DNA of 64,000 nt from an uncultured Polaribacter sp. (GTDB lineage Bacteria > Bacteroidota > Bacteroidia > Flavobacteriales > Flavobacteriaceae), in NCBI GenBank assembly GCA_943788045.1, contig CALSOT010000002.1, forward strand, positions 366,310-430,309, read 5' to 3'. Position numbers and translations under genes: made by a program. The notes below the pieces were generated by a model. That model had not been told where the DNA came from, did no database searches, and worked only from the letters and a program-made list of their open reading frames with translations. Positions 6,915-57,047 of the stretch are shown one piece after another. Numbering within the stretch: position 1 is the stretch's first letter; the number at the start of each line of letters is the position of its first letter.

Positions 6915-6923
6915 GAATCGTAT

Positions 6924-37209: not shown

Positions 37210-37228
37210 TTATAATTTAGTTTATTCG

Positions 37229-38839
37229 TTATTGTAATAATTCAGCATCACCTTCTGATGTTCTTCTTGATTGTAATTCCGTTGATATTTCACTCATTTT
37301 TTTACTTGTGAGTGGATATAAAAACATTAATGCTGCTGCCGCAAATGTCATGATAGAAGGAATCCAACTCATTAACATCTTAATGGCAGGGAATGCCTCT
37401 TGTGGCGAACTTTCGTAGTTGTATGCTGCTAATACAAAACCAATTAATGCACCTGCGATACCACCACCAAACTTAGTCGCGAATGAACCTGCAGAGTAAA
37501 TAAGACCAGTTGCTCTTCTTCCATCTTTCCATTCTGAGTAATCTGCAATGTCGCCTAACATTACAAAAAATAAAGTAGGGAAGATCGCTGCCGAGAATTC
37601 AGATATAATACCTAATGTAAAGATACCTGAAATATCAGACTGGTCGCATAAGATTAATAATGCATTCATGATGCCAGAGAATATTAGTGCATAGATAAAC
37701 AAGTTACGTTTTCCTAGCTTTTTACTTAATGGCGCTGTAATTAATGCTCCAGCGATAGAGGCAATTCCTAGTCCAAATAAATAAGTTGCTGATAATAACG
37801 CATCATTTAAGTAGTGTGTAAAATATATAATTACAATACCTTGTTTGATGGCATTGTAAATATTAAACAACAAACCTATGATGATTAATACTAACCAAGG
37901 TTTGTTGGTCAATAAGTTTTTAAAATCTTCTAAAAGGTTACTTTTTTGTGTTTTTGGAGGTAATACTCTTTCTTTCGTAGAGGCAAATGTAGCAAGCATA
38001 AGAAGGGCTAAAATAGCGGACATTATATACATTGAATTACTATATCCTTTCTTTTGGTCGATAATAGAAATTTTGGCATCAGAAATTTCTTTTTCTCCTT
38101 CAACAATAAATGAGTACTTTTCTCCATTTACCATATTAAAATTCAATCTTTTCTCTAATGGGGTATCAATATTTTTAGCAGCATCGGCCCAAGCAATAGT
38201 TGCCAATCCGTCTTCTGTTTTGATACCCACGCTTTCTGCGTCTCTTGAAGCTATTACTTCGACTTTAAACTTGCCCTCTGAGATGTTCGAAACATTTATT
38301 TTAGGTTCAACGTTACCAAAATAGGCAACTAAAAACAAAAGAAGTACTTGTACTAACATACCTCCCGCAAATGCGCCAGTCATTCTAAAAGAGCCTATAG
38401 ATGTGCGCTCTTTGTCGTTACCTGTCATTACTCCCATTAATGCTCCGTATGGAATATTATTTGCTGTATAGATTAATGTAAATAAAATATAAGAAATGTA
38501 AGCATAAATGATTTTACCCGTTTCTCCGAAATTTGGTGTTGTAAACAATAAAGCTAATGTTAATCCCAAAGGTATAGCAGTCCATAGTATCCATGGACGA
38601 AATTTCCCGTATTTAGACTTTGTTTTATCACCAATGATTCCCATTAAGATATCACTAATACCATCACTAAATCTAGCAGTTAGTAAAACCAGTCCGGCAG
38701 TTGCAGGGTTTAACCCAAACACATCTGTGTAAAAAATAAATAGAAAGGTGGCAACACCTCTCCAAGCAATGTTGGCGGCACCATCTCCAAGGGCATATCC
38801 TATTTTTTCTTTTAAGGGAACTTTATTTATTTCTAACAT
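37229..38839 (-). CDS. GPH-type MFS sugar:cation symporter with inserted periplasmic domain
   Basis: Inner-membrane importer of the glycoside-pentoside-hexuronide (GPH) family, by resemblance to MelB/XynB-like proteins: VPLKEKIGYALGDGAANIAW at the N-terminus and the GPH loop DKTKSKYGKFRPWILWTAIP near residues 71-90. At 536 aa it exceeds the usual ~450-480. The extra length lies between helices 5 and 6, residues ~176-266, as a soluble, beta-strand-rich segment (GKFKVEVIASRD, NGEKYSFIVEGEK) that should face the periplasm. Twelve helices are otherwise arranged normally. Coupled in one transcript with GH1, it likely imports beta-gluco-disaccharides. Confidence 0.88.
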   Translation of the reverse strand: MLEINKVPLKEKIGYALGDGAANIAWRGVATFLFIFYTDVFGLNPATAGLVLLTARFSDGISDILMGIIGDKTKSKYGKFRPWILWTAIPLGLTLALLFTTPNFGETGKIIYAYISYILFTLIYTANNIPYGALMGVMTGNDKERTSIGSFRMTGAFAGGMLVQVLLLFLVAYFGNVEPKINVSNISEGKFKVEVIASRDAESVGIKTEDGLATIAWADAAKNIDTPLEKRLNFNMVNGEKYSFIVEGEKEISDAKISIIDQKKGYSNSMYIMSAILALLMLATFASTKERVLPPKTQKSNLLEDFKNLLTNKPWLVLIIIGLLFNIYNAIKQGIVIIYFTHYLNDALLSATYLFGLGIASIAGALITAPLSKKLGKRNLFIYALIFSGIMNALLILCDQSDISGIFTLGIISEFSAAIFPTLFFVMLGDIADYSEWKDGRRATGLIYSAGSFATKFGGGIAGALIGFVLAAYNYESSPQEAFPAIKMLMSWIPSIMTFAAAALMFLYPLTSKKMSEISTELQSRRTSEGDAELLQ

Positions 38840-39254: not shown

Positions 39255-41483
39255 ATGAGGTTACCTTTTAAAAATAATAGTTCATTATTAACTCTAATTT
39301 TATGTCTGCATTTTTTACTCGTAAGTGGGCAGAAGAAAATACCACAAATTAAATTAGAAAAGGGTCAAACAAGTACTGAATTTATAGAGGCTAAAATAGA
39401 TAGTATTATTGCTGTTTTAACTCTTGAAGAAAAAGTAGCGTTGACTCATGCACAATCTAAATTTAGTGCAAAAGGAGTTGCTCGCTTGGGTATACCAGAA
39501 GTATGGATGTCTGACGGACCTCATGGAGTTAGAGAAGAAATTAGCTGGGATGCTTGGTCAGAGGCTGGTTGGACTAATGATGCTATTACAGCTTTTCCGG
39601 CATTAACTTGTTTAGCAGCAAGTTTTAACCCTAAATTATCTAGAGATTATGGTTTTAGTTTAGGTGAAGAAGCGCGATATAGAGAGAAAGATATTTTACT
39701 TGGCCCAGGTGTAAATATTTACAGAACTCCCATGAATGGCAGAAATTTCGAGTATTTAGGAGAAGATCCTTTTCTGGCTTCAACTATGGTTGTGCCCTAT
39801 ATTAAAGGAGTTCAAGAGAATGGAGTTGCAGCTTGTGTAAAGCACTTTGCTCTTAATAATCAGGAGCATTGGAGAGATAAAATTAATGTAGAAGTTAGTG
39901 ATAGAGCCTTGTATGAAATTTATTTACCTGCATTTAAAGCCGCCGTGCAAAAAGGTAATGTTTGGTCTCTTATGGGGGCGTACAATAAGTTTAGAGGTCA
40001 ATACACAACGCATCATAAAATTTTGAATAAAATTTTAAAAAATGATTGGGGTTTTGATGGTGTTGTTATAAGTGACTGGGGTTCTGGTCATAGTACAAAA
40101 GAGGCAGCTTTATATGGCTTAGATATAGAAATGGGAACAGGTACAGATGGTTTAGGTACAGGTGCAGATAATCATTATGAATATTATTATTTAGCAAAAC
40201 CATTTTTAAAAGCAATCAAAAATGGTGAATTAAGTGAGGACTTAGTCGATGATAAAGTACGTAGAATTTTAAGATTAATTTATCGCACAAGCTTAAATTC
40301 AAACAGAGCTTTAGGTAAGCTAAATACTAAAGAACATCATGAGGTTGCTAGAAAAGTCGCTACAGATGGTATTGTTTTATTAAAAAACGAAGATAATTTT
40401 TTCCCTGTTAAAGATAAAAAAGGGTTAAAAATTGCAGTTATAGGAGAAAATGCGACTAGAGATATGACAAGAGGAGGTGGGTCATCACAATTAAAACCTC
40501 TTTTTGAAATATCTCCGTTAGAGGGGCTTAAGACAAGATATAAAAACGCTGCAATTATCCATACTATGGGTTATGAATCTGGCGCTTCCGCCTATGATAA
40601 AACACTTCCAGCAACTTTAAATCAAGATTCTTTATATGTAAAGGCAATCGAGGTTGCTAAAAAAGCGGATGTCGTTCTTTTCATTGGTGGTTTAAATAAA
40701 AGTTATCATCAAGATAGTGAAGGTGATGACAGAGAGGTATTTGCTTTGCCTTATGGACAAGAAAAATTATTAAACGGTATTAACGAAGTAAATAAAAATG
40801 TAGGTTTTTTATTAGTGACAGGTAATGCGGTTGCAATGCCTTGGATATCTAAAACAAAAGGAATTTTACAAACGTGGTATTTAGGCAGTATGGCTGGACA
40901 TGCAATTGCAGATATTGTTAGTGGAGACGCAAATCCTTCAGGAAAACTTCCTTTTTCTTTTCCAAAGAAATTAACAGACAATGCAGCACATTCATTTGGA
41001 GAAGTTTCTTACCCAGGAGATGGTGTAAATCAATATTATAAGGAAGATATATTAGTTGGTTACAGATGGTTTGATACTAAAGAGATAGCTCCTCAATTTG
41101 CTTTTGGTTATGGTTTGTCCTATTCTGATTTTAAAATTTCTAACATTAAAATTGACCAAAAAAAATACAGAATAAATGATAAAATAAAAGTAACCCTGGA
41201 TGTTTCTAATATAGGCAGTAGACCTGGCTCTGAAGTTGTTCAAGTATATATTGGTAAACATAAATCTAAAGTGAAAAGAGCTTTAAAAGAATTAAAAGGA
41301 TTTTCTAAAGTTTATTTAGATAAGGGAGATAAAAAAAACACCACAATAACTATTGATGTATCGCAATTAGCCTATTACAACACTAAAATTTCAGATTGGT
41401 CTGTCGAAAAAGGAACTTACTATTTGTACGTGGGAAACGCATCAAACAACATTGTAAAAAAAATTAAGTTTGTTTTGTTTTAA
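39255..41483 (+). CDS. Exported beta-glucosidase, glycoside hydrolase family 3 (first copy)
   Basis: A 742-aa secreted GH3 enzyme with a signal peptide (LLTLILCLHFLLVSGQ). The (beta/alpha)8 domain includes PEVWMSDGPHGVREE and the nucleophile Asp in FDGVVISDWGSGHST near residue 275. The second domain starts around residue 370 (GIVLLKNEDNFFPV), and a fibronectin III-like domain ends the protein (VTLDVSNIGSRPGSEVVQVYI). It probably removes terminal beta-glucose in the periplasm or at the surface. It is first in the plus-strand PUL operon. A terminator hairpin lies directly after it, so downstream genes need read-through. Confidence 0.92.
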   Translation: MRLPFKNNSSLLTLILCLHFLLVSGQKKIPQIKLEKGQTSTEFIEAKIDSIIAVLTLEEKVALTHAQSKFSAKGVARLGIPEVWMSDGPHGVREEISWDAWSEAGWTNDAITAFPALTCLAASFNPKLSRDYGFSLGEEARYREKDILLGPGVNIYRTPMNGRNFEYLGEDPFLASTMVVPYIKGVQENGVAACVKHFALNNQEHWRDKINVEVSDRALYEIYLPAFKAAVQKGNVWSLMGAYNKFRGQYTTHHKILNKILKNDWGFDGVVISDWGSGHSTKEAALYGLDIEMGTGTDGLGTGADNHYEYYYLAKPFLKAIKNGELSEDLVDDKVRRILRLIYRTSLNSNRALGKLNTKEHHEVARKVATDGIVLLKNEDNFFPVKDKKGLKIAVIGENATRDMTRGGGSSQLKPLFEISPLEGLKTRYKNAAIIHTMGYESGASAYDKTLPATLNQDSLYVKAIEVAKKADVVLFIGGLNKSYHQDSEGDDREVFALPYGQEKLLNGINEVNKNVGFLLVTGNAVAMPWISKTKGILQTWYLGSMAGHAIADIVSGDANPSGKLPFSFPKKLTDNAAHSFGEVSYPGDGVNQYYKEDILVGYRWFDTKEIAPQFAFGYGLSYSDFKISNIKIDQKKYRINDKIKVTLDVSNIGSRPGSEVVQVYIGKHKSKVKRALKELKGFSKVYLDKGDKKNTTITIDVSQLAYYNTKISDWSVEKGTYYLYVGNASNNIVKKIKFVLF

Positions 41484-41502
41484 TTTGAATTATTGAATGT
41501 TG

Positions 41503-41538
41503 AAAAGCAGTATAAAGTATAATTTATACTGCTTTTTT
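41503..41538 (+). terminator. Internal terminator/attenuator after the first GH3 gene
   Basis: A perfect 12-bp stem (aaaagcagtata, 41503-41514; tatactgctttt, 41525-41536) with a T run, only 14 nt before the next start codon. There is no room for another promoter, so it should lower rather than stop expression of the following genes. Confidence 0.8.
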
Positions 41539-41552
41539 AAAATTTTAAAAAA

Positions 41553-42428
41553 ATGAAAATAAAACTTTTAGCGAGTGCAATTTTACTCTGCCTCATTTTT
41601 GCGTTTAATTCTAAAATAGGATTAAAAGAAAATACATTTTTTGATGAAAAGTGGATTCTAAAAAATGTTGATAGCTTATTCGTTAAAAACACCTACAAGG
41701 CTGCCAATGATTTAGAACTACCATACCGCCTATTTTCTCCAAATAAACGACATAACCAAAAGATTCCTTTAGTTGTATTTCTTCACGGTAGAGGGGAAAG
41801 AGGTGTCGAAAACGGAGAGAGAATTTATCGAAACGCTGGGTTTATAATGAATAAAAATTCATTAATAACGGCGCAATCACAAGCTAAATATCCCTGTTAT
41901 ATTTTAGTGCCACAATGTTCTAATAAAACCAATAACGAAGAATGGGCAAAATGGGTTGGGAACTCTCCAGAAACTCCATTTAAAGGCTTGGGCAAGAATG
42001 GCTCTTATATGATGAACCCTATACCTTCAGAGTCTGGTGAAGCTACATTAGAATTAATAGAAAAGTTAATTTCTGAAAAATCAATAGATACATCAAGAAT
42101 CTACATAACAGGTTTATCTATGGGAGGTTTTGGAACATGGGAGTTTATAGCAAGAAAACCTGATTTATTTGCAGCAGCTATACCAATGGCAGGATATTCT
42201 GACCCAAATCAAACTAAAAACATAAAAAAGATTCCTATTTGGATTTTTCATGGAAATAAAGACAAATGGAATCCTGTTGAAGGCTCTAGAAATATGTATT
42301 CTAAATTAACTGAAGCGAATGCTGATGTAAAATACACGGAGTACAATCTTGGTCATGGAGATACCTTTAAGGAGGCATTTAAAGAACAAGATTTAATTCC
42401 ATGGATGTTTTCAAAATCAAAAAAATAA
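41553..42428 (+). CDS. Exported carboxylesterase (PHB depolymerase/feruloyl esterase-like)
   Basis: A 291-aa alpha/beta-hydrolase with an N-terminal signal (KLLASAILLCLIFAFNS). Oxyanion region VVFLHGRGERG, nucleophile Ser in YITGLSMGGFGTWEFIARKP near residue 190, candidate Asp in HGNKDKWNP and catalytic His in YNLGHGDTF near residue 270. Similar proteins occur in many PULs next to GH3 enzymes and remove acyl or aromatic groups from glycans or glucosides; the acyl group here is unknown. It lies 15 nt after the terminator hairpin and 7 nt before the lactonase gene. Confidence 0.82.
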   Translation: MKIKLLASAILLCLIFAFNSKIGLKENTFFDEKWILKNVDSLFVKNTYKAANDLELPYRLFSPNKRHNQKIPLVVFLHGRGERGVENGERIYRNAGFIMNKNSLITAQSQAKYPCYILVPQCSNKTNNEEWAKWVGNSPETPFKGLGKNGSYMMNPIPSESGEATLELIEKLISEKSIDTSRIYITGLSMGGFGTWEFIARKPDLFAAAIPMAGYSDPNQTKNIKKIPIWIFHGNKDKWNPVEGSRNMYSKLTEANADVKYTEYNLGHGDTFKEAFKEQDLIPWMFSKSKK

Positions 42429-42435
42429 AAAACCT

Positions 42436-43410
42436 ATGCTAAAAACAATACCAATTATTGGTTTTTCAATTATACTTTTTGCTTGTAATTCTAAAAATTA
42501 TAAAAAGATAAAAGAAGAAAAAAAACAAAATAACATTGCATCTTTAGAATATAAAGTGGAAGCTAATTTGGGTGAAGGCGCTATTTGGAACTATAAGACA
42601 CATGAGTTATACTGGATAGATATTGAAGGCAGACAGCTAAATATTTACAATCCTAAATCAAAAATAAATAAAGTTTTAAACACTGAATCTAGAATAGGTA
42701 CTGTTGTTCCGTTTACTGAAGATGAAGCTCTGATTGCGCTAGAAAATGGAGTTCATAAAATAGATATACAAACAGGGAAAAGTAATTTATTTACAGATAT
42801 GAAAAATGAATTGCCAGGTAGTAGATTAAATGATGGTAAATGTGATCCTTCAGGAAGATTTTGGGTTGGCTCAATGCATTTAGAACAAGAAACTGGTAAG
42901 GCTAATTTATATACAATTACATCAGAAAACATCTTGCAAAAGAAAATAAATAGTGTTACCATTTCAAACGGTATTGTTTGGACTTCTGATAAGAAAACCA
43001 TGTATTACATAGATACGCCAACTTCAACAATTAAAGAGTTTGACTATAACAATGAAACAGGAGAAATTTCAAATGGAAAAATTGCGGTTAAAATCCCTAT
43101 TAAATTTGGTTTTCCTGACGGAATGACTATCGACGAGGAGAATATGCTTTGGGTTGGTATGTGGAATGGAAATGCGGTGATTAGATTTAATCCGAAAACA
43201 GGAAAAGTGATTTCTAAAATTGAAGTTCCCGCCCACAACATTACTTCTTGTGCATTTGGTGGTGAAAATCTAGAAACGCTTTATATCACTTCGGCAAGAA
43301 TAGATATGACAGAAGAAGAACTAATAAAATACCCTCTTGCAGGTTCATTATTTAGCATAAACCCTGGGGTTAAAGGAGTGAAAAGCAACTTTTATAAACA
43401 TAGTAAATAG
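42436..43410 (+). CDS. SMP-30/gluconolactonase-like lipoprotein
   Basis: Six-bladed beta-propeller lactonase of 324 aa. The N-terminus IIGFSIILFACNSKN is a lipoprotein signal, so it is periplasmic or surface-exposed. The SMP-30 metal sites are suggested by ANLGEGAIWNYKTHELYWID (Glu), SRLNDGKCDPSGRFWVGSM (Asn/Asp), SNGIVW and DGMTIDEENMLWVGMW. Relatives hydrolyse aldonolactones such as glucono-1,5-lactone. The gluconokinase, 6-phosphogluconate dehydrogenase and gluconate permease in the same operon strongly support gluconolactone, or the lactone end of an oxidised oligosaccharide, as substrate (inference). It lies 7 nt from both neighbouring genes. Confidence 0.87.
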   Translation: MLKTIPIIGFSIILFACNSKNYKKIKEEKKQNNIASLEYKVEANLGEGAIWNYKTHELYWIDIEGRQLNIYNPKSKINKVLNTESRIGTVVPFTEDEALIALENGVHKIDIQTGKSNLFTDMKNELPGSRLNDGKCDPSGRFWVGSMHLEQETGKANLYTITSENILQKKINSVTISNGIVWTSDKKTMYYIDTPTSTIKEFDYNNETGEISNGKIAVKIPIKFGFPDGMTIDEENMLWVGMWNGNAVIRFNPKTGKVISKIEVPAHNITSCAFGGENLETLYITSARIDMTEEELIKYPLAGSLFSINPGVKGVKSNFYKHSK

Positions 43411-43417
43411 ACCAATT

Positions 43418-45670
43418 ATGAAAAAAATATTTTTTTTGTTACTATTCAGTTTAACACTTGTTAGCTGTAAAGAAAACAAGCCAAAACTTTTAAAATATGG
43501 AGCTTATGAAAATAAAATAGATGCTTTAATATCTAAAATGACATTAGAAGAAAAAATTGGTCAAACCAATCTAAGAGGGGTCTCGAGTAGGGCAAAAATC
43601 TTACCAGAGGATTTAAAAGAATCTGTGAAAAATGGAAATGTAGGAGCTTTTTTAAACATAATGAATTTAGATTATGTAGATGAATTACAAAGATTGGCTA
43701 TTGAGGAAAGTCCAAATGGAATTCCTTTAATTTTTGGAAGAGATGTTATTCATGGGTTTAAAACTCTTTTTCCAATTCCACTTGGTTTAGCAGCAACTTG
43801 GGACGCACAAATAGTAGAAAAATCTTCTGAAATTGCGGCTTTTGAAGCTTCGGCAGCAGGAATAAGATGGACATTTGCACCAATGTTAGATATTGCACGA
43901 GATAGTAGATGGGGAAGAATTGCAGAATCTCCAGGCGAAGATACTTATTTAGCAACCATATTAGGAGAAGCTTATATTAAAGGTTTTCAAGGAGATGACT
44001 TAAGTAATCCTCATAGAATAGCCGCTTCTGCAAAGCACTACATTGCTTATGGAGCAGCAATAGGAGGTAGAGATTATAATACCGTAAATTTAAGTGAGCC
44101 TTTATTACGAAACGTTTATTTACCGCCTTTTAAATCGGCAATAGATGCGGGGGCGGCAACGGTAATGAGTTCTTTTAATGAGATAAACGGTATTCCTGCA
44201 ACCGGTAATGAGTTTTTATTGAAAGATGTTTTAAGAGGTGAATTACAATTCGATGGTTTTGTTGTAAGTGATTGGGATTCTGTTATTGAAATGATTGAGC
44301 ATGGCTTTGCCAGGGATGAAAAGCATGCGGGAGAATTAGCCGCAAAGGCAGGATTAGACATGGAAATGACCAGTGAAGCGTATGAAAATCATTTAAAAGA
44401 ATTGATTAAAGAAAATAAAGTAACTATTGAAGAATTAAATGAATTTGTTCGTAATATTTTGCGAATCAAATTTAGATTGGGTCTTTTTGAAAATCCTTAT
44501 AGAAATAAAAAACACACTGGTAATTTTTATGCAGAAAAGCATTTAAAAGAAGCTAAAAAAGCCGCAATAGAAAGTACCGTATTATTAAAAAATAAGAATT
44601 CAATTTTACCAATTTCAACAAAAGCAAAAGTTGCTATTATTGGTCCATTAGCAAATGCACCACATGAGCAATTGGGTACTTGGGCTTTTGACGGAGAAAA
44701 AGAACATACAAACACACCTTTATTAGCTTATAAAAATGCGAATGCAAATTTTAAATTTGCAAAAGGATTAACACATAGTAGAGATATTTCTAAAAAAGGG
44801 TTTAAAAAAGCAATTGAAATTGCTAAAAAATCTGATGTAATATTATTCTTTGGTGGTGAAGAGGCAATACTTTCTGGAGAAGCACATAGTAGAGCCAATA
44901 TAGATTTACCGGGAGCTCAAGAAGAGTTGATAAATGAACTAGCAAAAACAGGAAAACCAATTGTGCTAGTTATCATGGCAGGAAGACCAATTACAATAAC
45001 AAATATTATAGAAAAGACGGATGCTGTTTTAATGGCTTGGCATCCTGGCACAATGGGAGGTGAAGCGCTGTATGAGGTTTTACATGGTATAAAATCTCCT
45101 GAAGGTAGATTGCCTGTTTCTTGGCCAAAAACAGCAGGACAATTGCCTTTTTTTTACAATCATAAAAACACAGGTAGACCTGCAGATAGCACTTCTTTTA
45201 TCCCAATGGAAAAAATACCAATTGCTGCGTGGCAAAGTTCTTTAGGAAACGACTCGCATTATTTAGATGCTGGTTTTACACCTCATTTTCCTTTTGGCTT
45301 CGGATTAACGTACACTTCTTTTAATTATTCTGATATGTCTATATCTAAAAATACGATTCATTTTAATGAAGATTTAGAGGTTAAAGTATCGATTAAAAAT
45401 ACAGGTGAAAAGGATGGTAAAGAACTTGTTCAACTCTATGTTCAGGATTTAGTAGGTAGTATTACCAGACCTGTAAAGGAGTTAAAAAGATTTAAACATG
45501 TCTTCTTAAAAAGTGGGGAAACAAAAGAAATTTCTTTTAAAATATCTTCTAAAGATTTGGAATTTGTGAATCATAAAATAATAAAAGCTGCAGAAGAAGG
45601 AACATTTAATCTTTGGGTTGGACCTAATGCTGCTCAAGGTTTAAAAACATCTTTTATCCTTCAAAAATAA
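43418..45670 (+). CDS. Beta-glucosidase lipoprotein, glycoside hydrolase family 3, BglX-like (second copy)
   Basis: A 750-aa GH3 enzyme with a lipoprotein signal (FLLLFSLTLVSCKEN). Typical BglX segments are IPLIFGRDVIHGFKTLFPIPLG, RWGRIAESPGEDTYL and the nucleophile Asp in FDGFVVSDWDSVIEM near residue 285. The acid/base Glu should lie in the GGEEAILSGEAHSRANIDLPG loop around residue 480. It ends in a fibronectin III-like domain. It differs clearly from the first GH3 in sequence, so the two probably have different linkage preferences. It overlaps gntK by 1 nt (AATAATGA). Confidence 0.93.
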   Translation: MKKIFFLLLFSLTLVSCKENKPKLLKYGAYENKIDALISKMTLEEKIGQTNLRGVSSRAKILPEDLKESVKNGNVGAFLNIMNLDYVDELQRLAIEESPNGIPLIFGRDVIHGFKTLFPIPLGLAATWDAQIVEKSSEIAAFEASAAGIRWTFAPMLDIARDSRWGRIAESPGEDTYLATILGEAYIKGFQGDDLSNPHRIAASAKHYIAYGAAIGGRDYNTVNLSEPLLRNVYLPPFKSAIDAGAATVMSSFNEINGIPATGNEFLLKDVLRGELQFDGFVVSDWDSVIEMIEHGFARDEKHAGELAAKAGLDMEMTSEAYENHLKELIKENKVTIEELNEFVRNILRIKFRLGLFENPYRNKKHTGNFYAEKHLKEAKKAAIESTVLLKNKNSILPISTKAKVAIIGPLANAPHEQLGTWAFDGEKEHTNTPLLAYKNANANFKFAKGLTHSRDISKKGFKKAIEIAKKSDVILFFGGEEAILSGEAHSRANIDLPGAQEELINELAKTGKPIVLVIMAGRPITITNIIEKTDAVLMAWHPGTMGGEALYEVLHGIKSPEGRLPVSWPKTAGQLPFFYNHKNTGRPADSTSFIPMEKIPIAAWQSSLGNDSHYLDAGFTPHFPFGFGLTYTSFNYSDMSISKNTIHFNEDLEVKVSIKNTGEKDGKELVQLYVQDLVGSITRPVKELKRFKHVFLKSGETKEISFKISSKDLEFVNHKIIKAAEEGTFNLWVGPNAAQGLKTSFILQK

Positions 45671-46164
45671 TGAAAAATGTTATTGTAATCATGGGAGTCA
45701 GTGGTTGTGGAAAGACATCTGTTGGGGAATTACTCTCTAAAAAATTAAATATTCCTTTTTACGATGGAGATAATTTTCATCCTAAAGAGAATATTGAAAA
45801 GATGAAAAATAATATTCCTTTAACTGATAAAGACAGATTGCCCTGGTTGAAAGAACTATCTAAAAATATTACATCTTGGAAAAAGAATGAAGGAGCTATT
45901 TTAGCTTGTTCTGCATTAAAAGAGTCATATCGAAAAATTTTAAATGCATACAAGAATACTGATTATTGGGTGGTTTTAAATGGTGATTATCAATTAATCT
46001 GCGATAGAATTTCTAAGAGAAAAAATCATTTTATGAAACCCGATTTATTAAAGTCACAAATAGAAACTCTTGAAGTGCCAAATTATGGATTGCACATAAA
46101 TATTTCTATGAGTTTACCTGAAATTGTAAATACAATCACTCAAAATATTAAAACAAATGCATAA
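45670..46164 (+). CDS. gntK: Gluconokinase
   Basis: A 164-aa P-loop kinase phosphorylating gluconate to 6-phosphogluconate in the cytoplasm. Walker A is in IMGVSGCGKTSVGELLSKKL, the substrate region is FYDGDNFHPKENIEKM and LTDKDRLPWL, followed by ACSALKESYRKIL, all typical of the GntK (thermoresistant) family. It overlaps the GH3 gene by 1 nt and gnd by 8 nt, so it is tightly coupled inside the gluconate branch of the PUL. Confidence 0.95.
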   Translation: MKNVIVIMGVSGCGKTSVGELLSKKLNIPFYDGDNFHPKENIEKMKNNIPLTDKDRLPWLKELSKNITSWKKNEGAILACSALKESYRKILNAYKNTDYWVVLNGDYQLICDRISKRKNHFMKPDLLKSQIETLEVPNYGLHINISMSLPEIVNTITQNIKTNA

Positions 46165-47545
46165 ATCAGAATTTGGAGTTATTGGTCTTGGTGTTATGGG
46201 AAAAAGCATCAGTTTAAATATTGCAGAAAATGGATTTTCTACTTCAGTTTATAATAGAATTTGTGAGGGTGAAGAAAATGTTGTTGACGATTTTATTCAT
46301 AGTACTTCCCTTAAAAATATTAATGGTTTTACGAATTTAAAATCTTTTGTGGAGGGTATAGAGAGGCCGCGTAGAATTTTAATAATGATTAAGGCGGGAA
46401 CAGCAATAGATACTATTATTCAGCAAATTTTACCTTTTTTGCATAAAGGTGATGTTATTATTGATGGAGGGAACTCTTTATTTACAGATACTCAAAGAAG
46501 AACAATTTATTTAAATCAGGCGGAAATTGATTTTATTGGATGCGGGATTTCCGGAGGGGAGGAAGGTGCCAGAAAAGGCCCGTCTATTATGCCTGGAGGA
46601 ACTTTTGAAGCCTATCTAAAAGTTGCACCTATTTTAGAAAAAATTGCAGCAAAAGACAACTCAGGTAAACCTTGCTGTACTTTTATTGGTAATGATGGGG
46701 CTGGTCATTTTATAAAAATGATTCATAATGGAATTGAATATGCAGAAATGCAACTAATTGCAGAGGTTTATTCGATTTTAAAAGTATCCTTTACGAATGA
46801 TGAGATTTCTAAATTATTTCATGAATGGAATATAGAAAATACAGGGAATTATCTTTTAGAAATTACATCGAAAATCTTAACAAAAAAAGAAGGAAATAAT
46901 TATTTAATTGATTTAATTTTAGATAAATCTGGTAATAAAGGAACAGGTTCTTGGTCTAGTAAAACAGCGCTAGATCTCGGATTTCCGGGTACGATGATTA
47001 CTGCGGCTGTATTTGATCGATTTATTTCTTCTTTTAAAAAAGATAGAGTTGAGTTATCAAAAAACTTAACAAGAAAAGTTCATTTTAATGCACCAAAAAT
47101 AGAAGATTTAAAAAAGGCGTATCAGTTTGCGAGAATTATAAATCATCACCAAGGATTCCTTTTAATGAAAGAAGCCTCAAAAACGTATAATTGGAATTTA
47201 AACTTCTCTGAAATAGCACGAATTTGGACGAACGGTTGTATTATTCGCTCTAAGTTTATGGAGAAATCTATTGAAATTTTAAAAAACAATAGTGATTACT
47301 TAAAGGATAATCAAACATTTAATTCTTTACATGACAATGAAGATGCTATCGTAGAAACTCTAAAATATGGTTTAGAAAATCGCATTCCTTTAAACACCTT
47401 AAATGCGTCATTTAATTATTGGATGTCCATTACTTCAGAAAGGTTACCTGCAAATATAATTCAAGCACAAAGAGATTTTTTTGGAGCACATACCTATCAA
47501 AGAATAGATAAAAAAGAACAAGAATACTTTCACACAACATGGTAA
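46157..47545 (+). CDS. gnd: 6-phosphogluconate dehydrogenase (decarboxylating)
   Basis: Oxidises 6-phosphogluconate to ribulose 5-phosphate, CO2 and NAD(P)H. The Rossmann motif is FGVIGLGVMGKSISLNI, the substrate-binding GCGISGGEEGARKGPSIMPGG is near residues 125-148, and the catalytic Lys is in HFIKMIHNGIEYAEMQLIAE near residue 183. The 462-aa length matches long, homodimeric 6PGDH. Together with GntK it sends gluconate into the pentose phosphate pathway rather than the Entner-Doudoroff route, whose genes (edd, eda) are not in the window. Confidence 0.95.
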   Translation: MHKSEFGVIGLGVMGKSISLNIAENGFSTSVYNRICEGEENVVDDFIHSTSLKNINGFTNLKSFVEGIERPRRILIMIKAGTAIDTIIQQILPFLHKGDVIIDGGNSLFTDTQRRTIYLNQAEIDFIGCGISGGEEGARKGPSIMPGGTFEAYLKVAPILEKIAAKDNSGKPCCTFIGNDGAGHFIKMIHNGIEYAEMQLIAEVYSILKVSFTNDEISKLFHEWNIENTGNYLLEITSKILTKKEGNNYLIDLILDKSGNKGTGSWSSKTALDLGFPGTMITAAVFDRFISSFKKDRVELSKNLTRKVHFNAPKIEDLKKAYQFARIINHHQGFLLMKEASKTYNWNLNFSEIARIWTNGCIIRSKFMEKSIEILKNNSDYLKDNQTFNSLHDNEDAIVETLKYGLENRIPLNTLNASFNYWMSITSERLPANIIQAQRDFFGAHTYQRIDKKEQEYFHTTW

Positions 47546-47549
47546 TATT

Positions 47550-48890
47550 ATGATAGATTTCACCTTAATTTTTGCAGTTGTTATTGGCATAATAATATTA
47601 CTTTTTTTAATTCTAAAATTAAGAATACCTGCTTTTATAGCTCTTTTAATAGCAAGCATTTCTGTTGGTATCTTCTCAGGAATGAATCCTCTTGATATCA
47701 TCAACACGATAAAAGAAGGTATGGGAAATACTTTAGGTTTTGTAGCTACTGTTGTTGGATTAGGAGCAATGTTTGGTGCTATTTTAGAACACTCTGGAGG
47801 GGCTGAAGCTTTGGCAAATTATTTACTAAACAAATTTGGAGAAAAAAATGCTTCTTGGGCTTTGATGATAACCGGTTTCTTTATTGCTATTCCTGTTTTT
47901 TTTGATGTCGCATTTATAATTTTAGTACCCCTAATTTATTCACTGCAAAGAAAAACTAAAAAATCTTTATTGTTATACGCCATTCCGTTATTAGCAGGTT
48001 TGGCAATTACCCATTCGTTTATACCACCAACTCCCGGACCAGTTGCTGTTGCGGATATTTTAAAAGCAGATTTAGGTTGGGTGATCCTTTTTGGATTTAT
48101 TGTAGGCATACCCTCTGCAATTATAAGCGGCCCATTATTTGCCAAGTATATCTCAAAAAAGATACATATTAATGCGCCTAAGATAGTAGACAAACAAAGT
48201 CATAAAGACTATCCTGCCGTAGGATTAATATTGGCTATTATTGGTATTCCTATTGTTTTAATTGTTGGTAACACCGTTTTAAACAGTCCTTTGTTTGAAG
48301 AAGGTACAATACCTAACAATGTTAAAAATTGGCTACAAATGATTGGGCACCCGTTTTCAGCATTAATCATAGCAAATCTAATTGCTTGGTATTTATTAGG
48401 TATTAAAAGAGGTTATAGTAAAGAAACGTTGTTAAAAACAACAACAAAATCCATGGAAGCTGCTGGAATTATCATCCTTTTAACAGGTGCAGGTGGCGTA
48501 TTTAAACAAATTTTAATAAATACAGGAACTGGTACAATGTTAGCAAATTATTTTGCAGATAAAGGAATTAGTATTTTACTATTCGCTTTTTTAGCGGCTG
48601 TTATTGTAAGAGTTTTGCAGGGTTCTGCAACTGTTGCAATGATAACTGCAGCAGGTATTACAGCTCCATTACTATCAAATACAATTACCGACATAGATAA
48701 AGCTCTTTTGGTAATTGCAATTGCAGCTGGTGCTTCAATTATGTCTCATGTAAATGATAGTGGTTTTTGGCTTGTAAGTAAATATTTACATCTTGATGAA
48801 AAACAAACTTTTAGAAGTTGGTCTGTAATGACTACGATATTATCCCTTGTTGGTTTTACAACGGTTCTTATAGTATCCTTACTATTTTAA
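47550..48890 (+). CDS. Gluconate:H+ symporter, GntP family
   Basis: Inner-membrane permease of 446 aa with about 12-14 hydrophobic helices. Family signatures include IPAFIALLIASISVGIFSGM, GFFIAIPVFFDVAFIILVPL, HSFIPPTPGPVAVAD and the C-terminal IMSHVNDSGFWLVSKYL. GntP members import gluconate or related aldonates, and the gntK-gnd neighbours make gluconate the best guess. It starts 4 nt after gnd and ends the plus-strand operon. Its stop lies one base from the stop of the convergent VCBS lipoprotein gene, with no terminator between. Confidence 0.93.
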   Translation: MIDFTLIFAVVIGIIILLFLILKLRIPAFIALLIASISVGIFSGMNPLDIINTIKEGMGNTLGFVATVVGLGAMFGAILEHSGGAEALANYLLNKFGEKNASWALMITGFFIAIPVFFDVAFIILVPLIYSLQRKTKKSLLLYAIPLLAGLAITHSFIPPTPGPVAVADILKADLGWVILFGFIVGIPSAIISGPLFAKYISKKIHINAPKIVDKQSHKDYPAVGLILAIIGIPIVLIVGNTVLNSPLFEEGTIPNNVKNWLQMIGHPFSALIIANLIAWYLLGIKRGYSKETLLKTTTKSMEAAGIIILLTGAGGVFKQILINTGTGTMLANYFADKGISILLFAFLAAVIVRVLQGSATVAMITAAGITAPLLSNTITDIDKALLVIAIAAGASIMSHVNDSGFWLVSKYLHLDEKQTFRSWSVMTTILSLVGFTTVLIVSLLF

Positions 48891-48891
48891 T

Positions 48892-51800
48892 TTAGTTTTT
48901 TAATTTTAAATATTGAACTTTATCATTATTTTTTGCAATAATTATATGACGTTCTTGATTAACCATTATTTCTGACATGTCTTTTACGTCTCCTGAGGCT
49001 GAAAATCCACTTTTTAAGACAGGAACAGGTAAAAAAGTACCATCACCTTTTCCTTTTAAAAACAATCCGTGACTTGCATCATTTCTTGGTGTTTCAACTT
49101 CTGAAACATATAGATTTCCCGCGATTAATGCGTCTAAATTTCCATCGTTGTCATAGTCATCAACTAAAATTTGATTGATACTTGAAAATTGTGCTTGAAT
49201 TGGAAGTTTGTGAGTAATAAATTGTCCTTTATTGTTTTCTAAGTAAATACTTGCAAACGATTTTACTTGATGATGGATGGCATTATCTAAATCTTGTTTT
49301 GAATATACATCAATTAAAGTCGCTTCAGAGAAACTTTTGTAATCTTTAAATACATGTTTTATTGCCGGAATCTGTTGAGATGAGCATTCTCTACCACGAA
49401 CAGGATATTGCTCTCCATCATTGTAATAACTCAAAACAATATCATTCTTTTTGTTATTATCAAAATCTTTAATGAAAATATCAAAGGTTTCATCTTCAGA
49501 GGCTTTGTATTTATAATTAAGTCCATTATTACCAAGAATATAATCCATATCGCCGTCGTTATCAAAATCACCTTCTTGTATACTCCACCACCAACCAGTG
49601 GTGTCCTTGTCAACTCCCATATCTTCGGAAACTTCTTTGAATTTTCCTTTGTTATTTTTAAATATTCTAATTGGCATCCATTCGCCTACCACAATAAGAT
49701 CTAACCAATTATCATTATCAATATCAGTAACAACTGCACTTGTAGCCATTCCTAATGCATTAAATTCTTTTAGTACTTCATCAGTTGCGTCCTTAAACTT
49801 TGCAATGCCATTTTCACTTTTGTTTAGTAAAATATAAGAGTTTGCTGAAGCTGGGTAATTTTTTGGTAGTTGCCTTCCTAAGACAATTAAGTCTTCTTTT
49901 CCATCTTTATCCAAATCTGCATTGTAAACTCTTGAACCACTTGTTATCATTTTTGGCAAGGCTTTTTCGGATAATGTAAAATTACCTTTACCGTCGTTAA
50001 GGTACAATCTATCTTGAAGCCATTTAGAATTGGCCTCAAATTCATATCCACCGCTAACAACATACAAATCATTATCTCCATCTTGGTCAGCATCAAATAT
50101 TGTTGCCCCAACATCCTCACTCATTAAAGTTTTATTAAAATCGGGTATGTTATTTTCAATAAAACCTGTCGGAGTTTGCAAATACAATTTTCCCTGGTGC
50201 TTTGAGGCTGCGCCCACAAAATAATCCTCTAAACCATCACCATTTAAATCTCCAACTGCCAATGCAGGTCCGAATTGAGACATTTTATGAGGTAATAATA
50301 CTTGATCAATAAAATCGTCGTAATAATTTTCTATATGTTGATGTTCTGGGAACACATTGTCTGTATTTGATGAGAATAGCTGCTGTACTATTTTAGTATT
50401 AGCTTTCGTTTCTATAGCATCTTTGTAATTTAGTGTTATTTTTTGGTTGACATCAAGGTTACTTATTTCTTGCGTTTTTCCATCTGTCCAAACCACTTTT
50501 AGACTTTCAATTATGGGTGATTTGTTCAAACCAAAATGTAGTTCAGGAGCAACAGATGATTGAAATCCTCTGGTAAGGGTAAGTTCCTGCATTTGCGTTT
50601 CATCACCAACTGTAATGTACACTCTATTACCTAAACCAAACTTATTTCCTTTCTTGCCTTCAAAATCAACCATTAAATAATTATTGATAGTCGAACTCGT
50701 ATTTTCAAATACTGATGCAACATCATCAATATTATTTGTAATAATTTCAAGATCTCCATCATTATCTAAATCAACATAAACGACACCATTTGAGAATCCT
50801 TCATATTCTATTCCCCATTTATCATTTGCCTTTTCAAAATTTAAATCTCCATTATTTTTAAAAACAAAATTATCAATCTTTTCAGAGGGAATTTCAAGGC
50901 TTTTCTTTAACATATCAGCCTTTGTTAATTTTAATTTTTTCATTTCATTGAAGAAATCCCTGTTGTTAATCTCTCTTCGCGTTCCGTTTGAAATGAAAAT
51001 ATCTTTTAGTCCATCATTGTTTAAATCTACAAAAAGAGGTCCCCAGCTCCAATCCGTCGATGATAATCCGGCGATTCGTGATACATCGCTAAAATGGGGT
51101 AATGAGTCATTGAGAACACCATGATTTACTTGAAGGTTATTTTGCATGTATTGGTAGTGAAATCCTGAGTTCACAGTACTCCAAAATAATCTAGGATTCA
51201 TACTTGCCATATTCGCTTTTTGCCTGCGGTTATTTTGAGCCATCATATCTACCTGAATCAAATCTAATAATTGATCGTTATTAAAATCAGCAATGTCCAC
51301 GCCCATTCCATAAAAGGCTGTGTGTTTTGTGGTATTTTTTACTTGTTCGCTAAAAGTCCCATCATGGTTATTAATAAATAAATAATCAGGTGAACTAAAA
51401 TCATTGGAAACATATAAATCTGGCCAACCATCATTATTCAAATCTCCTACTGTACAACTTAATGAAAGTCCAAATGTGCCAACTCCAGATTCTTTGGTCA
51501 CATTCACAAATTTACCTCCATCATTACGGAACAATTTATCCGTTTCGTGTTCTTTTGGATTTTTCATTTTCCATAAATAGTGACTATTCGGTGCATTAAA
51601 TCGGGTAGAGGGGTAGTTTGCTAAAAACAAATCTAAATCTCCATCTAAGTCATAATCAAAAAAGGTAGATTGTACGCTATGTCCAGCATCAGCTATGCCA
51701 AATTCTTTTCCTTTTTCGGAAAAAGTCATATCTCCATTATTTATATAGAGAAGATTTTCTTTCGGGCCGAATTTTCCGCTCACTGAGCAGTATATATCTA

Positions 51801-52179
51801 AATATCCATCATCATTAACATCTGCCATGGTAACACCTGTAAACCATCTATTGTCGCCTCCAACATTAGCAATATCGGTAATATCCTCAAATTTGAGATT
51901 CCCTTTATTTAAGTATAATTTATTAGATACCATGTTACCTGTAAAAAATACATCATTTAATCCGTCGTTATTGATATCACCAACAGATATTCCACCACCC
52001 ATATACATGTAGGCATAAGTCAAATAATTTAAAGAGTCATTTTCTGTTAAAGTATTTTCAAAATTAATACCTGAATATGAGGAATTTATTTTTTTGAAAA
52101 TAGGGGAGTTATTTTTAAAATCATTTTTGCAAGCTGATAAAAAGAGTACAAGTGTAAATGGTAAAAATAGTTTTTTCAT
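48892..52179 (-). CDS. FG-GAP/VCBS repeat lipoprotein with ASPIC/UnbV domain
   Basis: A 1095-aa surface or periplasmic lipoprotein. The start at 52179 is chosen because it gives a lipoprotein signal (LFLPFTLVLFLSACKND); the track start adds 19 unlikely residues. At least ten calcium-binding FG-GAP/VCBS loops of the DxDxDG type are visible (DYDLDGDLDLF, DLNNDGWPDLY, DFDNDGDMDYI, DYDNDGNLDAL). A UnbV/CRTAC1-like domain is near residues 500-580 (TLTRGFQSSVAPELHFGL). Such proteins often follow susD and may act as glycan-binding partners (inference). A terminator hairpin separates it from susD. It converges on gntP. Confidence 0.85.
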   Translation of the reverse strand: MKKLFLPFTLVLFLSACKNDFKNNSPIFKKINSSYSGINFENTLTENDSLNYLTYAYMYMGGGISVGDINNDGLNDVFFTGNMVSNKLYLNKGNLKFEDITDIANVGGDNRWFTGVTMADVNDDGYLDIYCSVSGKFGPKENLLYINNGDMTFSEKGKEFGIADAGHSVQSTFFDYDLDGDLDLFLANYPSTRFNAPNSHYLWKMKNPKEHETDKLFRNDGGKFVNVTKESGVGTFGLSLSCTVGDLNNDGWPDLYVSNDFSSPDYLFINNHDGTFSEQVKNTTKHTAFYGMGVDIADFNNDQLLDLIQVDMMAQNNRRQKANMASMNPRLFWSTVNSGFHYQYMQNNLQVNHGVLNDSLPHFSDVSRIAGLSSTDWSWGPLFVDLNNDGLKDIFISNGTRREINNRDFFNEMKKLKLTKADMLKKSLEIPSEKIDNFVFKNNGDLNFEKANDKWGIEYEGFSNGVVYVDLDNDGDLEIITNNIDDVASVFENTSSTINNYLMVDFEGKKGNKFGLGNRVYITVGDETQMQELTLTRGFQSSVAPELHFGLNKSPIIESLKVVWTDGKTQEISNLDVNQKITLNYKDAIETKANTKIVQQLFSSNTDNVFPEHQHIENYYDDFIDQVLLPHKMSQFGPALAVGDLNGDGLEDYFVGAASKHQGKLYLQTPTGFIENNIPDFNKTLMSEDVGATIFDADQDGDNDLYVVSGGYEFEANSKWLQDRLYLNDGKGNFTLSEKALPKMITSGSRVYNADLDKDGKEDLIVLGRQLPKNYPASANSYILLNKSENGIAKFKDATDEVLKEFNALGMATSAVVTDIDNDNWLDLIVVGEWMPIRIFKNNKGKFKEVSEDMGVDKDTTGWWWSIQEGDFDNDGDMDYILGNNGLNYKYKASEDETFDIFIKDFDNNKKNDIVLSYYNDGEQYPVRGRECSSQQIPAIKHVFKDYKSFSEATLIDVYSKQDLDNAIHHQVKSFASIYLENNKGQFITHKLPIQAQFSSINQILVDDYDNDGNLDALIAGNLYVSEVETPRNDASHGLFLKGKGDGTFLPVPVLKSGFSASGDVKDMSEIMVNQERHIIIAKNNDKVQYLKLKN

Positions 52180-52213
52180 TACTTTGAAAATAAATATTAG
52201 ATATGTGTAAATA

Positions 52214-52244
52214 TAAAAAAACAGGGCATCTTTCAATGCCCTGT
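52214..52244 (-). terminator. Internal terminator between susD and the VCBS gene
   Basis: A perfect 9-bp GC-containing stem (acagggcat/atgccctgt, 52221-52229 and 52236-52244), followed on the minus strand by seven T residues. It lies 25 nt after the susD stop and 35 nt before the VCBS start. Confidence 0.82.
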
Positions 52245-52268: not shown

Positions 52269-53954
52269 TTACCAATCTGGGTTTTGAGTTAATACCCCAC
52301 CACTTCCATCAATTGCTGAAATTGGAATTGGCCAATTATTGTGTTTACTGCTCCATGTACCGGCTTCTGAACCAAATTGCGGGTTCGCACGAGATTCATT
52401 TTCAACATATGTATTCATTCTTGCAGCGGTATTTCCCCATCTTACGATGTCAAAATATCTATGTCCTTCCATTCCCATTTCTAAACGACGCTCAAAACGT
52501 ACTGCTTTTCTAGCAGCTTCTTGTGTTGAAAAATCAGAAGAAACATAAGGCTCTATTACATAATTTGCCGCATTTCCTCCTCCTGGCGCTTGTACATAGT
52601 TCGAGGATTTAGCTCTATTTCTTACTATATTTACGTTTGAAAGTGCAGTACTTAAATCTCCTGTTTCAAGAGCAGCCTCTGCATGCATTAACAATACATC
52701 TGCAAAACGCATAACGTGATAGTTAACACCAGAGTTTTGTTCACCCCAACCACCTGTTGACATATTGTCTGTTTCACCGTTCCAATACGTGTTTTTCTTA
52801 GGTAAATAAGCACCTGAAATATCAGAAGGCTCATTTCTTAACCAATCTGCACCAGGACTTACGCCATAACCGTTATAATCGATACCTCTTCGAGCTATTG
52901 TATAATCAACTCTTGGATCTAATGGCCCCGCGTATGGTGTAAATGGATCTGCTGAAGGAATCCCTAAATCACTAGTTACGTCAGAATCCGCGTAAGTGTC
53001 TAATTCTGGCAAACCAGCTGCAGTAGTTTTATAGGCGTTCAATAAATCTTGAGATGGCATATAGAATCCACAACAAGACGCATAAGGACCACCGTTAATG
53101 AAATTTAAAGCACCTCTTAGGTTTGTATTTGATCCGGTAGCATCTTTAGTAAATTGGATAGCGAACATTGTTTCACTACTATTTTCACCAGCTAATCTAA
53201 AGTTGTCTACAAAATCTGCCATTAAAGAATAAGGTCCATTGTTAACAACATCTGCTAGTAATGGCAGCGCTGCATTCCAATCAGATTGGTACAAATGTGT
53301 TTTTCCTAAAAATGCTTTCGCAACCCAAGAATTTGGTCTACCTATTACATCTTGGCTATTTGGCAAGTTGTCTGCAGCATATTTAAAATCTGCTTCTATT
53401 TTATCCCATGGCGCACTCAGGTTTGGTTGGTTAAACTCTTGAGCGGCATACATTTCTTCGTCAATAAAAGGAATGTACTTATATATTTTCGTCAATTCAA
53501 AGTAAAAATGACCTCTTAAAAAACGTGCTTCTGCCAATTGAGCACTAAAATCTCCTTCAGGAATTGAATTAATCAATGCGATTACTGCATTTGCTCTTTG
53601 AGCACCCGCCCAAACTGCAGACCATTTTCCTAAGAAATATGAACTACCCGTAGACCAATTTAAAGTTTCTACGTTGTATAATTCTGGTTGATCACCATCC
53701 GTACTTCCCTTGTGGGCGTCATCAGACAATGTATCAAAAATCCAGTTAGAAGGGCCTTGTGCCCATCCTTCACCTACAGAGTTTAATCGAACACCATCTA
53801 GCGCAGAATAGGCACCTGTAAGCATTAAATTAACTCCTGTTTCATTTTGCAATGCCACATCACTTAAAGCACCAACAGCTGGTGATTCTGTAAAGTCATC
53901 GCTACACGCTAGTACCAATGCTAGCGCACTAAAATAAATAAATATTTTTTTCAT
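52269..53954 (-). CDS. SusD/RagB family outer-membrane lipoprotein
   Basis: A 561-aa glycan-binding lid of the SusC transporter. The lipoprotein signal is IFIYFSALALVLACSDD, followed by the SusD-like N-terminal domain (NLMLTGAYSALDG, FWNW-like WSAVWAGAQRANAVI) with TPR-type helices (FLRGHFYFELTKIY, AKAFLGKTHLYQSDW). The C-terminal RagB/SusD domain holds VLLMHAEAALETG and FERRLEMGMEGHRYFDIVRWG, which is strongly conserved. It begins 6 nt after susC. The ligand is unknown; genomic context points to a beta-glucoside. Confidence 0.95.
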   Translation of the reverse strand: MKKIFIYFSALALVLACSDDFTESPAVGALSDVALQNETGVNLMLTGAYSALDGVRLNSVGEGWAQGPSNWIFDTLSDDAHKGSTDGDQPELYNVETLNWSTGSSYFLGKWSAVWAGAQRANAVIALINSIPEGDFSAQLAEARFLRGHFYFELTKIYKYIPFIDEEMYAAQEFNQPNLSAPWDKIEADFKYAADNLPNSQDVIGRPNSWVAKAFLGKTHLYQSDWNAALPLLADVVNNGPYSLMADFVDNFRLAGENSSETMFAIQFTKDATGSNTNLRGALNFINGGPYASCCGFYMPSQDLLNAYKTTAAGLPELDTYADSDVTSDLGIPSADPFTPYAGPLDPRVDYTIARRGIDYNGYGVSPGADWLRNEPSDISGAYLPKKNTYWNGETDNMSTGGWGEQNSGVNYHVMRFADVLLMHAEAALETGDLSTALSNVNIVRNRAKSSNYVQAPGGGNAANYVIEPYVSSDFSTQEAARKAVRFERRLEMGMEGHRYFDIVRWGNTAARMNTYVENESRANPQFGSEAGTWSSKHNNWPIPISAIDGSGGVLTQNPDW

Positions 53955-53960
53955 TTTTTT

Positions 53961-56900: not shown

Positions 56901-57047
56901 TGTCCCTTTAACTAAAATGGACACTCCGGGTAAAGGGTTCCCTGAAGAATCTTTTACCTCTCCGGTAATTTTCTTGTTTTGCGAAAAAACATTTTGCATG
57001 CATAAAAGCAGGCATGCAATAATTGTGACTTTAAATTTGTTCATCAT
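53961..57047 (-). CDS. SusC/RagA family TonB-linked outer-membrane transporter
   Basis: A 1028-aa TonB-dependent importer. A signal peptide (TIIACLLLCMQNVFSQ) precedes a carboxypeptidase-regulatory-like domain (ITGEVKDSSGNPLPGVSILVKG), then a TonB box region (EVIVMGYSSQTRGDLTGSV), the plug domain (LFIIDGVQTDDPNALNNLNPSDID) and a ~700-residue beta-barrel ending in F (TMGVNFKF). The start may be the second Met (57044). It is preceded by a promoter-like box at 57225 and a long hairpin. It is followed after 6 nt by susD, the invariable pairing. Confidence 0.96.
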   Translation of the reverse strand: MMNKFKVTIIACLLLCMQNVFSQNKKITGEVKDSSGNPLPGVSILVKGTVIGVDTDFDGNYSISDVSASNELVFSYLGMISQTIVVGDNSKIDVVLLEDATSLDEVIVMGYSSQTRGDLTGSVASIDMDEALKAPVVTAAEALQGRSTGVTVLSDNTPGAAPKINIRGFGTTNNTNPLFIIDGVQTDDPNALNNLNPSDIDQMNVLKDGAAAIYGARAANGVVIITTKGGGYNQSKPTVTLDMYTGFSQIANTPDMLNPEQHAQMLFQSQVNDGVSPSHPQYGDGTFTVPSSIVKYNRVKSYKPITLWGEGEKNATVTPGGTDWIDAMTSSALTNNIALSLSNGNETGKYFMSLGYLTRDGVAAYTGFERLSTRLNSEFKIGDKITIGEHMNVSFTNTQSGNSEAWEMALRMTPLLPVYDDEGLFAGSRAPGIGNTRNPVAQNYRTRDDYAKRYAAFGDVYLNWEILENLSFKTTLGGGFNTFDSRRFTSLDPEHGEPIGINNLNEQDQTASNWIWSNVLSYNKTYKEHSINALVGYEALKNSDKGKGVTVSDFLFETPDFYLLNNGAVPPKVDYAYDNSNSLASVFATVNYSFRDKYFATVTLRNDTSSRFLGDNKSATFPSFSGGWIMSKEDFFNADGFVNRLKLKGSWGQLGNQTLPVNNPTINISSLNNSQADYYFDGANLSSGAIISAIGNPNLRWETSESLNFGVELAMLDSRLNMSLEGYQIKTKDLISQDFGLISTTAIDASAPYVNLGDIQNTGFDLGLGWNDTTDSGFSYGASLNLSRYKNEVVKLIGGAPVGGRTNELRGQQPTRTEEGEEMSYFYGRKVIGLSDTGRFVYEDVNGDGTVDDDDRTNIGSPHADFTYGLNLSGAYKGFDAQLFFTGSQGNDIYNFNKFYTDFPAFVNGNRSTRVLDAWTPSNTNTNVPALSTSITNNEGDPNSYYVEDGSFFRLKNIQIGYSLSEDITKKMNISSARFYVQATNLFTITDYSGFDPEIISQNNLSLGVDNRIYPNSKIFTMGVNFKF

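Follow-up and report, generated by a model that had tools for sequence, protein, structure and literature searches.

A beta-glucosidase polysaccharide utilization locus with a gluconate branch in an uncultured Polaribacter

We analyze a 64,000-nt stretch of DNA (hereafter, the window) from an uncultured Polaribacter sp. of the family Flavobacteriaceae (assembly GCA_943788045.1, contig CALSOT010000002.1, positions 366,310 to 430,309), part of a 2.9 Mb genome that is 99.8% complete. At positions 41553-48890 of the window, six plus-strand genes follow one another: an exported esterase (EST), a gluconolactonase/SMP-30 lipoprotein (SGL), a glycoside hydrolase family 3 beta-glucosidase (GH3b), gluconokinase (GntK), 6-phosphogluconate dehydrogenase (Gnd), and a gluconate:H+ symporter (GntP). 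We ask how this gluconate branch belongs to the surrounding polysaccharide utilization locus (PUL), what it supplies to the host, and where its gluconate may come from.

Genes of the locus

The six genes are tightly packed, with gaps of 7 nt between EST and SGL, 7 nt between SGL and GH3b, and 4 nt between Gnd and GntP, while the reading frames of GH3b and GntK overlap by 1 nt and those of GntK and Gnd by 8 nt. The identities of GntK, Gnd, GntP, and GH3b are given by scores above curated NCBIfam cut-offs and those of SGL and EST by Pfam; signal peptides and lipobox cysteines of the exported proteins were read by eye. These family scores confirm the esterase, gluconolactonase-like lipoprotein, gluconokinase, 6-phosphogluconate dehydrogenase, and GntP permease that an earlier note, made from the sequence, had named here.

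EST (41553-42428) is an alpha/beta hydrolase with a signal peptide (PF00326/PF01738) that matches the esterase of PDB 3DOH with E=2e-46. SGL (42436-43410; signal peptide, lipobox LFAC) scores 267 bits against PF08450, where the cut-off is 26, and its whole catalytic domain aligns with regucalcin and with the solved SMP-30/Cgr1 protein of PDB 7PLB (E about 1e-46). Its predicted metal ligands E47, N132, N178, and D228 occupy the positions equivalent to those of regucalcin and are invariant in an alignment of 13 homologues; with the family score, this E, N, N, D set predicts an SMP-30/gluconolactonase. GH3b (43418-45670; signal peptide, lipobox VSC) reaches 700.7 bits for the BglX equivalog NF011678 (cut-off 666), keeps the SDW nucleophile motif, and finds JMB19063 and Bacteroides GH3 enzymes in the PDB. 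The cytoplasmic GntK (45670-46164; TIGR01313, 161.7 bits, cut-off 113.75; PDB matches 3T61 and 1KNQ) retains the P-loop GVSGCGKT and the DGDxxHP and DKDRxPW motifs. The NADP-type Gnd (46157-47545; TIGR00873, 553.9 bits, cut-off 426.7) aligns along its entire length with the E. coli enzyme and retains SGG, the catalytic KxxHNGIEY, and the C-terminal QRDxFGAH. GntP (47550-48890) scores 460.9 bits for TIGR00791, with a cut-off of 292.75.

The earlier note had placed two exported GH3 enzymes in the operon. Both exist, and only GH3b lies within 41553-48890. The other, GH3a (39255-41483, plus strand), is a BglB-type enzyme with a signal peptide (PF00933 and PF01915; 751 bits to PDB 8VA7) and ends 69 nt upstream of EST. 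The spacer holds a terminator-like hairpin (41502-41538, plus strand) with a 15-pair stem and a U-tract, folding at -17 to -18 kcal/mol with z = -4.9, a fold equalled by no shuffle. A terminator pattern scan missed this hairpin, perhaps because the stem extends into the U-tract, and folding revealed it. As it separates GH3a from EST, GH3a is probably a transcription unit of its own, with some read-through into the EST operon.

Divergent from GH3a, a minus-strand unit at 35821-38839 encodes a GH1 beta-glucosidase (35821-37209; TIGR03356, 562 bits, cut-off 478.5; its PDB matches are beta-glucosidases), likely cytoplasmic as no signal peptide is seen, and a GPH-type sugar:cation symporter (37229-38839; TIGR00792, 352 bits, cut-off 231). 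On the other side, and convergent with GntP from whose end it lies 1 nt away, is a separate minus-strand operon for UnbV, a 1114-aa FG-GAP/ASPIC-UnbV repeat lipoprotein that is probably surface-exposed (48892-52236; PF13517, PF07593), a SusD-like lipoprotein (52269-53954; PF07980), and a SusC-like TonB-dependent transporter (53961-57047; PF07715, PF00593, PF13715). The window SusD resembles the solved homologue 5LX8, at an identity so low that we do not use it to infer the substrate. Beyond SusC, a hybrid two-component regulator (HTCS; 57446-61597, minus strand) combines Reg_prop, Y_Y_Y, HisKA, HATPase, Response_reg, and HTH_18 domains. With an adjacent SusC/SusD pair (52269-57047) and linked GH3a, GH3b, GH1, and HTCS genes, the gene content is that of a Sus-like PUL. 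A scan of the proteins encoded near the locus, as distinct from the genome at large, turned up no GH94 cellobionic acid phosphorylase.

Recurrence of the core and exchange of the importer

The core of GH3b, lactonase, and gluconate genes recurs together with UnbV and SusC/D in several Flavobacteriaceae genera, often as one operon. This bears out the earlier note's claim that the gluconate genes belong to a beta-glucosidase PUL and, judged by its return in several other genera, the arrangement is beyond chance. A single operon SusD-UnbV-SGL-GH3b-GntK/Gnd, followed by GntP where the contig continues, is found in the related clusters L065, L126, L131, L134, L135, L170, and L172, several of which add genes for a GPH symporter, a regulator of the LacI type, and a homologue of cellobiose epimerase. 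Other single-operon cases are L175, L100 (without SGL), and L157 and L103 (both with EST and GH3a). The convergent layout of the window is repeated in L098/L158 (Algibacter), in L111 (same genus, without UnbV), and in L206 (Tamlana sargassicola, with neither GntK nor Gnd). The order in this last cluster is GH3a-SGL-GH3b-GntP, and gluconate must take another route there.

The proteins of these clusters are conserved to very different degrees. Identity to the window is 60-77% for GH3b (16 clusters), 69-83% for GntP, 50-67% for SGL, 50-70% for Gnd, and 49-62% for UnbV; EST is kept in L098, L157, and L103 at 65-67% and missing from most other clusters, GH3a adjoins the core in L111, L098, L157, L206, and L103 at 69-72%, and the GPH symporter has orthologues at 67% in L131 and L090. 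By contrast, the window SusD shares no more than 24-27% identity with its counterpart in any related cluster, and SusC 23-33% over most of its length. SusD falls into three unrelated types: that of the window, that of L098 and L157, and that of all others, to which L111 belongs at 43-45%. Despite its different SusC/D, L111 has an HTCS that shares 69% identity with the window HTCS over 988 aa. As the core is 50-83% identical and the SusD types are unrelated, these comparisons argue that the core has been retained while the importer was exchanged, with the sensor retained too in the one case seen. On a Gnd tree, which was built quickly, has long branches, and is used only for a well-supported split (below) and for counting PUL occurrences, the PUL arrangement takes five changes, at least four of them forced by supported branches.

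UnbV is far better conserved than the adjacent SusC and SusD (window, L065, L098, L126, L131, L206; L111 is without UnbV). In L096 (4582-8381), the places of SGL and GH3b in front of GntK-Gnd-GntP are taken by a protein with a 3-keto-disaccharide hydrolase domain and by a Kelch/DUF5060 protein.

Gluconate and the oxidative pentose phosphate pathway

Gnd is the only 6-phosphogluconate dehydrogenase gene of the host genome (sole PF00393 match). No match to zwf (PF02781) was found in the host genome or in 19 of 19 genus mates tested, and the best host match to Edd scores 231 bits against a cut-off of 708, as IlvD and other dehydratases would. Thus, neither the classical oxidative pentose phosphate pathway nor the Entner-Doudoroff pathway can be recognized in this host. 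With zwf and edd absent and gnd present in one copy, the oxidative pentose phosphate pathway has no visible entry other than imported gluconate; as far as gene content can tell, GntK would be the sole source of 6-phosphogluconate and Gnd its sole use. The earlier note had described the gluconate branch and overlooked that it is the host's only visible way to 6-phosphogluconate.

Among 301 genomes of the family, 60 have zwf (all with gnd) and another 80 have gnd without zwf. Within the genus, gnd is present in 33 of 99 genomes, in none of which does it score at the level of the main zwf-linked class. The Gnd tree separates the sampled zwf-linked (housekeeping) gnd genes from the gluconate class with full support. 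In one zwf-bearing genome, gnd lies in two adjacent frames (G169:C1:592462-593324), perhaps owing to a frameshift or a sequencing error.

Gnd and GntK are often fused. In about 46 family genomes, the gnd frame measures 615-672 aa, as a GntK-Gnd fusion would, and direct matching found fusions in 52 of the 80 loci read in detail, with gntK mostly directly 5' of gnd in the rest. A GntK-Gnd fusion or adjacent pair also occurs within alginate PULs (L070, L071, L083, L109, L121, and about 30 more loci), where the motifs of both domains are intact, a gene for an Nramp-family transporter adjoins, and the other members are chondroitinase B family, Alginate_lyase2, heparinase-like/Alginate_lyase, cupin, and SDR proteins. 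Our literature search returned nothing on a GntK-Gnd fusion in Bacteroidetes or on a bifunctional GntK-Gnd associated with alginate.

Source of the gluconate and relation to known systems

Sugar dehydrogenases of the GSDH, GMC, and PQQ types, the three families surveyed, have no match anywhere in the host genome and are likewise absent from a second genome with the same cluster type (G404). The PQQ- or FAD-dependent glucose dehydrogenase of Pseudomonas-type periplasmic glucose oxidation is thereby not seen in the host. The earlier note's statement that no sugar dehydrogenase is present holds for the locus and, for these three families, for the whole genome, and a dehydrogenase encoded elsewhere, which it had named as evidence against its model, was not found among them. 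Its suggestion that the lactone or aldonate arrives ready-made is favored by the same absence, although a Gfo/Idh/MocA or SDR dehydrogenase would look alike. We also rejected a candidate AA7 oxidase, as the sole BBE match is a 27-bit fragment that covers 20 of 45 positions and lies within a frame of 967 aa. In four relatives, genes for a GMC dehydrogenase and gluconate-2-dehydrogenase subunit 3 lie immediately 5' of SGL-GntK-Gnd (L101, at 5200-7526; L140; L168; L169). The module can therefore be fed by a dehydrogenase, a part that the host lacks, and this placement supports gluconolactone as the shared intermediate.

The reading that we favor, and to which we give an even chance, is a Sus-like locus that serves short beta-linked gluco-oligosaccharides already oxidized at the reducing end, with a built-in branch for the aldonate. 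SusC, SusD, and UnbV would import oligosaccharides ending in gluconate or its lactone; GH3a and GH3b, both exported, would free glucose and leave gluconate or gluconolactone; and SGL would open the lactone, thereby also removing a beta-glucosidase inhibitor. Gluconate would then pass through GntP to GntK, and the resulting 6-phosphogluconate through Gnd to ribulose 5-phosphate, CO2, and NADPH. We infer this direction of flow, its compartments, and its regulation, as well as a covalent bond joining glucose to gluconate and its linkage. Homologues of a GH5 endoglucanase (in L098) and of cellobiose 2-epimerase (in L065, L170, and L172) hint at beta-1,4-gluco-oligosaccharides; a gluconolactonase-GntT unit of Zobellia that responds to laminarin (below) points to beta-1,3-glucan. 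GH16 has four matches elsewhere in the host genome. Beta-glucosides imported together with free gluconolactone would look the same as a covalent substrate. The earlier interpretation is upheld in part, with PUL membership supported, a ready-made lactone favored, and a single glucose-gluconate molecule and its linkage still hypothetical.

Several points weigh against this reading. The argument for an oxidized oligosaccharide is an indirect one, and no C1-oxidizing enzyme is known in the surroundings. SGL-GntK-Gnd-GntP stands alone beside housekeeping genes in L089, L092, L097, and L104, so the gluconate module can serve free gluconate. The exchange of SusC/D between clusters does not indicate one fixed glycan, dehydrogenases of the Gfo/Idh/MocA and SDR families are possible sources of gluconate, and the inducer of the Zobellia unit was laminarin rather than a deliberately supplied aldobionate. 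A rival reading is co-scavenging, the separate uptake of ordinary beta-glucosides and of free gluconate or gluconolactone from other organisms (via algal hexose oxidase or bacterial glucose dehydrogenases), with two branches that are co-regulated since their substrates co-occur and with no covalent link. A stand-alone operon exists in L089, L091, L092, and L097, the SusC/D types were swapped while the gluconate core was not, and red seaweed is reported to have a hexose oxidase (PMC4750953). However, in most of the 16 clusters GH3b is placed immediately after SGL and before GntK, which exceeds what shared regulation needs, and we consider co-scavenging rather unlikely.

It seems less probable still that the host itself oxidizes GH3-freed glucose in the periplasm by an unrecognized dehydrogenase, with SGL, GntP, GntK, and Gnd completing a direct oxidative route in place of zwf. 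A zwf-less host would obtain NADPH from glucose in this way, and the GMC genes beside SGL in the four relatives show that such a route is possible, but the GSDH, GMC, and PQQ families are missing from the host and G404, and the lone BBE match is a fragment. Two further explanations we regard as very improbable. Gluconolactone is a well-known inhibitor of beta-glucosidases, and SGL, exported and encoded directly 5' of GH3b, might chiefly shield these enzymes, with gluconate catabolism secondary; yet the kinase, dehydrogenase, and permease genes stay with SGL in nearly all clusters, and even L206, without GntK and Gnd, keeps GntP with SGL and GH3b, so that import still accompanies the lactonase. 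Alternatively, the substrate may be another lactone or aldonate, such as xylonate, as the best PDB match of SGL, level with regucalcin, is 7PLB, a Caulobacter xylonolactonase; against this, GntK, Gnd, and GntP are all of the gluconate type by curated cut-offs.

If oxidized oligosaccharides are indeed the substrate, then oxidized sugar ends, regarded until now as a minor side product of lytic polysaccharide monooxygenases and oxidases, would be a nutrient with a dedicated route of its own in marine Bacteroidota, many of which would operate the NADPH-yielding half of the pentose phosphate pathway only with gluconate available. A wider proposal, which we put forward tentatively and think somewhat more likely to fail than to hold, is that in zwf-less Flavobacteriaceae the oxidative pentose phosphate pathway has its dedicated and sole supply in imported gluconate from C1-oxidized glycans, through a mobile GH3-lactonase-GntK-Gnd-GntP core (GntK and Gnd often fused) set on unrelated SusC/D importers, as a Bacteroidota counterpart of the oxidized-chitin pathway.

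The earlier note knew of no described PUL with this content, a claim that goes slightly too far. The genes ZGAL_587-589 of Zobellia galactanivorans (gluconolactonase, GntT1, DgoD) form one laminarin-induced transcription unit, for which the authors predict conversion of gluconolactone to gluconate followed by import (PMC5613140). As in the window, a periplasmic gluconolactonase and a gluconate permease share one unit of a marine flavobacterium in a beta-glucan context; unlike the window, a dehydratase takes the place of GntK-Gnd, and the unit as described is without GH3 and SusC/D. The Gnt systems of E. coli and Bacillus have the permease and dehydrogenase families seen here, and E. coli shares the kinase family. 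There, zwf is a further source of 6-phosphogluconate, for which E. coli has Edd as an outlet, whereas zwf and Edd are not found here; conversely, no lactonase, GH3, or SusC/D is attached to those systems.

The GH3 step that we propose has a fungal parallel in Neurospora crassa, where a secreted beta-glucosidase splits cellobionic acid into glucose and gluconic acid (NCU08755, with CBT-1 and CAP in the pathway) and deletion of NCU08755, but not of the other three, reduces cellobionate consumption (PMC4537572). That pathway differs in having a second branch via a phosphorylase and no dedicated gluconate route identified. The ong cluster of Pseudoalteromonas prydzensis, a gammaproteobacterium, handles C1-oxidized chitooligosaccharides (PMC9537276) by the same logic of a TonB-dependent receptor, a periplasmic glycosidase that releases the aldonic acid, a dedicated inner-membrane transporter, and cytoplasmic catabolism, with GlcNAc1A instead of gluconate, GH20, an SSS transporter, and a deacetylase/deaminase route. 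Set beside these systems, the locus is a PUL variant whose enzyme families are ordinary and whose way of combining them is unusual, conserved, and to date little described. Its interest lies in an oxidative pentose phosphate pathway fed by gluconate only and in an exchangeable importer, with an aldobionate substrate as the leading, unproven reading.

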